A DNA stretch of 64,000 nucleotides from the NCBI RefSeq assembly GCF_000832065.1, contig NZ_JXQM01000007.1, positions 1 through 64,000 of the forward strand. The letters run 5' to 3'. Below, piece by piece: positions 28,874-31,792 of the stretch. Positions within the stretch are counted from its first letter, which is position 1. Each line of letters begins with the position of its first letter. The stretch comes from Nitrosospira sp. NpAV. Lineage in GTDB: Bacteria > Pseudomonadota > Gammaproteobacteria > Burkholderiales > Nitrosomonadaceae. The notes beneath the pieces were generated by a model. The model ran no database searches. It was not told the DNA's origin and saw nothing but the letters and a program-made list of their open reading frames with translations. The position numbers and the translations under genes were made by a program.

Positions 28874-31792
28874 ATGAAAAGCAGCGAAATAAGACAAAAA
28901 TTTCTCGAATTTTTTGCATCGCACGGCCACACGGTGGTTGCGTCGAGCCCCCTCGTTCCCGCGAACGATCCCACGCTGCTGTTCACCAATGCGGGAATGG
29001 TGCAGTTCAAGGATGTATTTCTCGGCCAGGATAAGCGGCCCTATGTACGCGCGACGAGTTCGCAGCGCTGCGTCCGCGCGGGCGGCAAGCATAATGATCT
29101 GGAGAATGTGGGTTATACCGCGCGGCACCATACCTTTTTTGAGATGCTGGGCAATTTCAGCTTTGGCGATTACTTCAAGCGCAACGCCATCAAATTTGCC
29201 TGGGAATTTCTTACCGTTACGCTCAAGGTCCCGCAGGAAAAATTATGGGTCACGGTTTATGCCGAGGATGACGAAGCCGCCGACATTTGGCTCAACGAGG
29301 TGGGAGTTGCTTCGTCGCGCTTCACGCGCATTGCCACCACGGATAATTTCTGGCAGATGGGCGATACCGGTCCCTGTGGTCCCTGTTCAGAAATTTTTTA
29401 CGATCACGGTCCGGATATTGCAGGTGGCCCGCCCGGCACGCCGGAAGCGGATGGCGACCGTTATGTCGAAATCTGGAACCTCGTGTTCATGCAATACAAC
29501 CGCGATAGCGCCGGCACACTGCACCCGTTGCCCAAGCCGTCGGTAGATACCGGCATGGGATTGGAGCGTATATCCGCGGTCATGCAACAGGTTCACAGCA
29601 ATTATGAAATCGATTTATTTCAGGATTTGATCAAGGCGGCGGCGCAGATTACGAATACAACTGATTTATCCAGTAATTCGCTCAAAGTAATCGCCGACCA
29701 CATCCGTGCCTGCTCCTTTCTCATCGCCGATGGCGTGATTCCCGGCAACGAGGGGCGGGGCTACGTTCTCCGGCGCATTATCCGCCGCGCCATCCGCCAC
29801 GGCTATAAGCTGGGCCAGAATCAGCCATTCTTTTATGCGCTAGTGGAAGATCTGGCGAAAGCGATGGGCTCGGCCTATCCGGAATTGGTTGAAGCCAAGG
29901 CCCGCATAGCGGCCGTGCTGAAACAGGAGGAAGAGCGTTTCTTCATCACAATCGAAACCGGAATGCGAATACTCAGTTATGCGACTTCCGAAGAAAATTT
30001 TGTGTTGCGCTGGCTCTCAGGAAAGACAGGGCTGGTTTTGAAGCATATGGACGTTGTGGGAATGAACTACGCTTTTGACGGTGCTTTAATTAGCGATAGC
30101 GGAGAGGAAATTCCAGTTGAGGTTGTTTTAGGTGAAGAAGATAACGTATCGTATGACCGTATATACAAATCTATATATGCGTTCAAGAACGATCCGTTTT
30201 CATATGCGGAGATATACGTAGTTTTCGTCGGTTCTGAAATTCCCTTCCGATTTGCGGCCCTTCTTGCAGGAAGCGACTTTCCATATAAAGAGTTTCTTGT
30301 CCCTCAAATAGAACTGGAGTCTTTTAGAAGGATTCCTGGAGATCTCGTATTTAAGCTACACGATACCTATGGCTTCCCTCTTGATCTTACTCAAGATGTA
30401 TGTCGTGAACACGGGGTAGTCGTGGACGTGGTAGGTTTCGAGACTGCAATGGCTCGCCAGAAAGAACACGCACGAGCGGCTAGTCGATTTACCGACATAC
30501 AGGATGGAATTAAATATAGTGAACGTCGAACCCAGTTTCATGGGTACGAAAGCTTGCAACACGAAGGTCAAATTCTCGCCCTTTACAAGGAAGGTAGCCA
30601 GGTAGATTTCATTGAAGCCGGGGATGAGGCAGTGGTTGTGCTGGATCATACCCCGTTTTATGCGGAATCCGGCGGACAGGTAGGCGATTGCGGGGAGCTG
30701 CTGGCCGCCAACGGCACCTTTGCCGTATCCGATACGCAAAAAATTCAGGCGGATGTATTCGGCCACAAGGGGCTGCTGCGCAGCGGGCGGGTGGTGATCG
30801 GCGACAAGGTGCTGGCAAAGGTCAACCCGGTGGCCCGGGCACGCACCGAGCGCAATCATTCCGTTACCCACCTGATGCACAAGGCCCTGCGGGAGGTATT
30901 GGGCGCTCATGTGCAGCAAAAGGGCTCGCTGGTCGATGCCGATAAAACGCGCTTCGATTTCGCGCATAACCAGCCCATGACGGATGACGAAATTCGCAAG
31001 GTCGAAGTTCTGGTCAACGCGGAAATTTTGACCAACGCGGCCACCGGGGCGCGCATGATGGCGATAGAGGATGCCAAGAAAACCGGTGCGATGATGCTGT
31101 TCGGCGAGAAATATGGCGACGAAGTGCGTGTACTGGATATTGGCTCCTCGCGTGAGTTATGCGGCGGCACACACGTCAAGCGCACGGGCGACATCGGATT
31201 GTTCAAAATCGTTGCCGAGAGCGGGGTGGCGGCGGGAGTGCGCCGCGTGGAAGCGGTGACCGGCGAGGGCGCTTTGGTTTATATCCAGCAACAGGAAGCG
31301 CAATTGCAGCATGTCGCGGATGCGGTGAAGGCGCAGCCGCGGGAAGCCGCCGCACGCATTGGCCAAATCCTGGATAACGTAAAACATCTCGAAAAAGAAC
31401 TTGCGCGCATGAAATCGAAATTTGCCAGCTCGCAAGGCGATGATCTCGCCGGACAGGTACGAGAGGTGAAAGGCGTTAAAGTCCTGGCGGTCTGTCTAGA
31501 AGATGCGGATTCGAGGACGCTGCGCGAAACGCTGGACAAGCTCAAGGATAAATTCAAATCCTGTGTCGTCGTACTGGCCGCGTTGGAAGCGGAAAGCGTC
31601 AAGCTGATCGCGGGTGTCAGCGCCGATCTCACGGCGAAAGTCAAGGCGGGTGAACTGATTAATTTTGTTGCCTTGCAGGTGGGCGGCAAGGGCGGCGGGC
31701 GCGCCGACATGGCCCAGGCAGGGGGAACCCGGCCCGATAATCTGCCTGCCGCGTTGGAGAGCGTGGCCGGGTGGGTTGAACAACGCTTGTAG
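28874..31792 (+). CDS. alaS: Alanyl-tRNA synthetase with an internal insertion
   Basis: AlaS charges tRNA-Ala and edits misacylated Ser or Gly. The catalytic domain is normal ([40 protein letters not shown] motif). The editing domain keeps the zinc-site residues in NHSVTHLMH and LCGGTH. A C-terminal coiled coil and DHHA1 domain are present ([14 protein letters not shown]). At 972 residues it is about 96 longer than E. coli AlaS. The excess sits between ETGMRIL (residue 367) and [13 protein letters not shown] (residue 489), which are normally separated by only a dozen or so residues. The region 29960-30620 is visibly AT-richer than the rest. Confidence 0.95.
29975..30337 (+). other. 121-codon in-frame insertion within alaS
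   Basis: Codons 368-488 replace the short linker that normally joins the tRNA-recognition helices to KLHDTYGFP. The insert reads as a continuous frame, mixed alpha/beta in character. One part is [20 protein letters not shown], with Tyr/Phe-rich stretches after it. It ends at [11 protein letters not shown]. It has no terminal Asn-Cys/Ser junction and no homing-endonuclease motif, so it is not an intein. Codon use (GTA, ATA, TAT, AAA) is unlike the flanks. I do not recognise the fold. Confidence 0.75.

Follow-up and report, generated by a model that had tools for sequence, protein, structure and literature searches.

What is a block of more than a hundred residues, missing from most close relatives, doing inside the alanyl-tRNA synthetase (AlaRS) of Nitrosospira sp. 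NpAV? The question is raised by a 64,000-nucleotide stretch of this genome (contig NZ_JXQM01000007.1, positions 1 to 64,000; the window hereafter), in which alaS is a single open reading frame (ORF) of unusual length. We lean, with slightly better than even confidence, to the reading that the block is a mobile, fast-evolving accessory domain with a PD-(D/E)XK fold that binds nucleic acid, which is carried by recombination and is not excised. The positions discussed first are as follows.

28874..31792, forward strand: alaS, alanyl-tRNA synthetase, 972 residues, a single open frame
29975..30337, forward strand: inserted block of 121 residues (residues 368-488), absent from 19 same-genus relatives and lowest in GC
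30338..30620, forward strand: downstream flank, foreign in codon use, in which the editing half starts

The inserted block and its predicted fold

The window's AlaRS has the aminoacylation, editing and DHHA1 domains of this enzyme (PF01411 in two stretches, PF07973 and PF02272; tRNA_SAD and DHHA1 are among the Pfam matches). A preliminary description made from the sequence had placed a foreign-looking in-frame block at residues 368-488, and this position is confirmed. The excess length is real as well, but since the 19 same-genus AlaRS proteins without the block have 862-869 residues, compared to 972 in the window, it amounts to a net 103-110 residues and not to 96. A second alaS that could make this copy dispensable was not found in the 315-contig genome, where the search gave a single PF01411 protein.

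The block was also described as AT-rich with unlike codon use, which is borne out by comparison with 576 overlapping, non-independent 363-nt segments from the other ORFs of at least 150 residues in the 64 kb. Its GC content of 0.421 is matched by none of these segments, and its GC content at third codon positions (GC3, 0.397) and its codon score are each matched by a single segment. The flank at 30338-30620 is similar, with a GC content of 0.472 (18/576 segments as low), a GC3 of 0.394 (1/576) and a codon score reached by 3/576. The remaining parts of alaS are ordinary in GC (0.544 and 0.595), and the codon score of the C-terminal part is lowish (27/576). After the alaS insert, the lowest GC in the window is found in comparison segments from dnaN and gyrB (10685-14332).

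The absence of intein motifs, already remarked on, holds in Pfam searches at E values up to 1, in which the block matched no family at all, intein and Hint families included, whether it was searched alone or within the complete AlaRS. An intein is rejected for want of a Hint splicing domain, and because there is no intein match the domain is presumably kept, unexcised, in the mature AlaRS. An assembly artefact is also rejected, because inserts of the window's type (type A, see below) occur in four genomes, including the single-contig genome G021.

Structure prediction suggests that the block is truly an extra domain. The AlphaFold result is one predicted model built from three sequences, with a predicted local distance difference test (pLDDT) score of 77.2; a model of full-length AlaRS scored 41 and was discarded. 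The modelled order is helix, three strands, helix, strand, helix, strand, helix, which contains the alpha-beta-beta-beta-alpha-beta core of the PD-(D/E)XK superfamily. The best matches in fold searches of the PDB were NucS/EndoMS, PaqCI, XisH and SfsA, all members of this superfamily. At the sequence level no convincing match of the insert to any family was obtained, and a PDB sequence search returned two alcohol dehydrogenase entries at an E value of 0.059. From the model, the block likely has a PD-(D/E)XK (restriction-endonuclease-like) fold, with the following elements.

29990..30328, forward strand: core of the PD-(D/E)XK-like domain (H-EEE-H-E-H-E-H, residues 373-485), from the AlphaFold model and fold searches
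30074..30082, forward strand: F401-D402-G403, motif II equivalent
30119..30121, forward strand: E416, motif III acid equivalent
30158..30160, forward strand: R429, located in the helix that follows strand 3, a candidate 'migrated' basic residue (motif IV)

Distribution, types and active-site residues

A survey of the family Nitrosomonadaceae covered 125 genomes. An AlaRS match was obtained in 121; the other four are counted in the totals given here, as are several genomes that gave only fragments. In 14 genomes AlaRS is interrupted within a single open frame. Inserts occur in 4/23 genomes of the window's genus (G000, G021, G001, G018), in 5/9 of genus g2 (G026, G029, G032, G038, G041), in 5/8 of genus g4 (G025, G031, G037, G043, G046) and in 0/85 of genus g3. 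Two relatives could be named, Nitrosospira sp. Nsp14 and a metagenome-assembled genome of the Nitrosomonadaceae. All 14 share one junction, which follows a helix containing GM (RF..T...GM in most) and precedes the F-x-L-(H/Y)-D-T-(Y/F)-G-F-P of the editing half. The block is thus far from universal, being absent from most relatives. It is not the peculiarity of one lineage either, but represents one type among variable, patchily distributed inserts that share this junction.

Thirteen of the 14 inserts are large. Grouped by sequence they form type A (G000, G021, G001, G038), type B (G032, G041), type C (the five g4 inserts), type D (G018) and type E (G026). Types B-D have only 10-26% identity to the window's insert. 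Types A and B are detectably similar (hhalign E 5e-5, probability 67%), and for both B members 0/200 shuffles scored better. The comparison of A with C gave an hhalign probability of 2%, and the number of better shuffles out of 200 against the type A profile varied among C members (L013 0, L015 0, L014 2, L012 36, L011 98); for the D and E inserts it was 2/200 and 72/200. The remaining insert, L050 in G029, is short and Gly-rich. It may be what is left of a larger insert, or a newly acquired filler of low complexity; close relatives have no insert, type A or type B.

Residue conservation was counted in a single MAFFT alignment of 12 inserts of types A-D, which are only weakly similar to one another. 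The most constant positions are F401 (12/12) and D402 (11/12, replaced by Asn in G041), followed by G403, I413 and V415 (10/12 each), and they fall on core strands 2 and 3. D402 is found on the model strand 48-54, the second core strand, where the motif II Asp is expected. Motif III is less well kept. The acid at position 416 is present in 4/12 inserts, all of type A, and the usual lysine at position 418 is Val in the window and Lys in two inserts of type C, so that a complete (D/E)-x-K occurs in 0/12 aligned inserts (E-x-V in the window). R429 is found in 7/12 inserts, belonging to types A, B and D.

Since the motif III acid is confined to type A and the lysine to two inserts, most inserts look non-catalytic, and types other than A probably have no active site. 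For type A the situation may differ. In DUF506, DUF790 and DUF1626, as described in PMC1913061, the motif III lysine has migrated to the following helix, often as an arginine. Type A, which keeps D402, E416 and R429, could by this precedent retain an active site of the migrated kind. The possible likeness of type A to these families consists of the Asp, the Glu and the conserved Arg in the next helix; types B-D differ in lacking the acid.

Recombination and exchange of the insert

29910..30630 (edges approximate), forward strand: probable imported recombination tract, comprising foreign-allele flanks and insert, from nucleotide identity and synonymous divergence

The preliminary description attributed the spill of unusual codon use to about 30620 to recombination, and the evidence from breakpoints, synonymous divergence (dS) and trees agrees with this. 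Nucleotide identity to G012, a close relative of the window without insert, falls near 29,909, with 0.91-0.93 before this point and 0.76 after it, and values of at least 0.84 are regained from about 30,630. In the alignable parts inside the tract it is 0.45-0.76, and outside it is 0.84-0.96 (29774-29908 and 30629-30853). At residues ~353-370 and ~488-570 the sequence is that of an ordinary alaS, though of an allele that looks foreign. The AT-rich spill is accounted for by an imported tract that runs over ~29,910-30,630. A comparable transition is seen in G038, where identity to its genus mate G035 rises from 0.53 to 0.96 at about codon 540.

Synonymous divergence of the downstream flank is saturated, as against 0.36-0.56 in the core for the pairs G000-G012 and G000-G021. 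For G000-G021 the core values are 0.56 and 0.43 and the insert value is 3.1. The reverse is found for G000-G001, with 0.60 in the insert against 1.24 and 1.67 in the core and a saturated flank, and for G032-G041, with 0.15 in the insert against 0.50 and 0.57 in the core. Depending on the pair, an insert is thus either more or less diverged than the gene that carries it, which fits exchange.

On a core tree of 49 rows, computed with the insert left out, type A requires four changes and large-insert presence eight, counts that do not separate gain from loss. Grouping all four type-A carriers in one clade is rejected (p 3e-39), as is grouping the three in the window's genus (p 3e-52); for G000 and G021 alone the rejection is marginal (p 0.03). 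In a tree of the flank (residues 488-545, only 57 columns) the type-A flanks group with AlaRS of other families (support 97/89), but a flank tree in which the family stays intact is not rejected either (p 0.13). The G035 draft has two complete insert-free alaS genes (contigs C9 and C26; L026/L044 and L045) that fall in different g2 branches of the core tree, indicating a mixed bin or a second copy.

Movement of the cassette by homologous recombination is well supported by these sequence comparisons. The window's copy probably arrived by recombination with a diverged, domain-carrying alaS allele, together with ~280 nt of downstream flank, and the same kind of cassette appears to have been exchanged repeatedly among the Nitrosomonadaceae.

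Recombination could also carry an insert that does nothing. In that case the junction would be a permissive linker where folded in-frame inserts are tolerated and come and go with alaS recombination without having a function. That the site is permissive is clear from other families. In the order, 399 genomes were searched and AlaRS was found in 390. Twenty-four whose scores were low or split were followed up, and the junction was read in all of these but G438, G071, G507 and G494; it holds an insert in 11 and is normal in nine. These unlike inserts have 30 to 107 residues after trimming, five of them only 30-36, and in comparison with the type A profile each is matched or beaten by at least one shuffle. 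Large inserts are uncommon. A passenger would also explain why G012 does without the insert, and it agrees with the rates of protein evolution. The ratio of nonsynonymous to synonymous divergence (dN/dS) in the five within-type insert pairs with dS below 1 is 0.27 (G000-G001), 0.37 (G032-G041), and 0.50, 0.25 and 0.22 (three g4 pairs), several times the values of the N-terminal core (0.03-0.08; C-terminal part 0.05-0.20, for the pairs computed). The L011-L012 inserts give 0.26 at a dS of 2.5, and two type-A pairs give 0.07 and 0.09 at dS 3.1 and 2.4, values made unreliable by saturation. Judged from these ratios, the domain is constrained, yet its protein sequence evolves faster than the core in the usable pairs. 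A passenger does not readily account for the persistence of F401-D402 where the rest falls to 10-26% identity, for the occurrence of related domains, A and B, on branches that lie apart in the core tree, or for the concentration of inserts in three genera (14/40, 13 large and one short) versus 0/85 in the fourth. We consider this explanation unlikely, although it deserves serious attention.

Among the inserts of other families, those of genus g47 in family f44 (L071, L072, L073, L075, L079) have 95-107 residues and no shown sequence relation to the window's type; four are alike and L072 differs, so to judge from sequence this group may swap inserts as well. L074 (G285, family f41) has a 91-residue junction insert, again different in sequence, and its gene is low in GC. 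Across the class, 184 genomes were sampled, of which 178 have AlaRS; besides the window's, two of them, G692 and G695, gave split-like scores (best E near 1e-160, at least two matches).

The searches for a source bear on a more active role, in which the domain is, or recently was, a selfish PD-(D/E)XK endonuclease that cuts insert-free alaS and is copied along with flanking sequence. The nuclease fold, the patchy distribution with at least eight changes on the core tree and the exchange of flank together with insert would fit this, as would the possible migrated active site of type A. However, ordinary recombination explains the tracts, the motif III acid is absent in 8/12 aligned inserts and D402 is Asn in G041. 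Moreover, no free-standing homologue of the insert was found at E ≤0.01 in the 125 family, 399 order, 9 f37 and 158 f24 genomes; weaker profile matches exist, including some in six genomes (E 0.05-0.63). Three others, in G347, G361 and G572, were rejected as the ORFs look unrelated by eye, and the search for a donor in families f37 and f24 gave nothing beyond the G572 match. A phage or plasmid source was rejected, with no phage match and one plasmid match at an E value of 1. A selfish cassette is improbable on this evidence.

Possible roles and comparison with known systems

In the reading that we favour, the block is an accessory domain of PD-(D/E)XK fold, inserted in frame where the tRNA-recognition helices give way to the editing domain. 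This location makes a nucleic-acid-contact role plausible. Since most inserts lack the canonical catalytic set, the domain would work mainly as a contact module beside the tRNA-binding path and not as a nuclease. Its rapid turnover would most readily result from conflict-driven or local adaptation.

A further possibility, raised in part by the preliminary description, is an adaptive change of AlaRS itself, which would affect tRNA choice or editing or protect the enzyme from an inhibitor or toxin aimed at it, its variants being exchanged under this pressure. The insert adjoins the editing domain, and its high turnover resembles that of arms races. Altered tRNA choice is nevertheless unsupported, because the tRNA-Ala genes do not vary with the insert over the first 50 nt that were compared. 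This part of tRNA-Ala(GGC) is identical in 12/12 genomes, the last 26 nt being outside the comparison. For tRNA-Ala(TGC), in nine genomes, the carriers G000, G021 and G001 match four insert-free genomes, and a one-site difference occurs in G006 and G023, both without insert. An altered tRNA-Ala was rejected accordingly. No inhibitor or toxin system is linked to the insert, although none was searched for. We regard such an adaptive change as improbable.

Comparison with known systems places the accessory domain in context. It shares with the PD-(D/E)XK superfamily the order of helices and strands, the FD(G) on the second core strand and the fold matches, but it sits inside an aminoacyl-tRNA synthetase and its (D/E)xK is incomplete in 12/12 aligned inserts. 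The RPB5 jaw domain and the Prp8 endonuclease-like domain also have the nuclease fold as modules of core information-processing machines, and both RPB5 by name and polymerase chains E appear in the fold searches with the insert model. Those domains are ancient and general in their hosts, whereas the AlaRS insert is patchy and swapped. Aminoacyl-tRNA synthetases evolve slowly, and additional in-frame domains such as the CP1 editing domain and the GlyRS insertions are mostly inherited vertically; the AlaRS insert differs from these in its horizontal exchange and its nuclease fold. With inteins and homing endonucleases it has in common a nuclease-type fold, an in-frame position in a conserved gene, patchiness and an exchanged flank, but no splicing domain was found and the catalytic residues are mostly decayed. 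A synthetase insertion domain is a known kind of element, here with a nuclease fold; what is striking is how mobile and variable it is. Among the matches listed in a search of open-licence literature no publication relevant to the AlaRS insert was found, which is no proof of absence.

In its boldest form the reading would be that a hypervariable nuclease-fold domain in an essential translation enzyme spreads as a cassette between species, acting either as a homing element that needs no splicing or as part of a genetic conflict in which phage or rival toxins are set against host translation, with a migrated active site in type A. We think this quite unlikely. If recombination does add, remove and exchange a domain of nuclease fold within AlaRS, this would show that even the translation core can carry a rapidly exchanged module. 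Close relatives provide a natural series with (G000, G021) and without (G012) the insert. The insert may also mislead alaS-based phylogenies of the ammonia-oxidising bacteria concerned.

In the window, alaS lies downstream of recA (by eye) and recX (Pfam). A small lipoprotein-like ORF of 115 residues (28495-28842, by eye), without a Pfam match, is located between recX and alaS. Adjoining recA, 25417-26784 encodes a trypsin-like protease domain followed by TPR repeats, the repeat units of which are very similar by eye.
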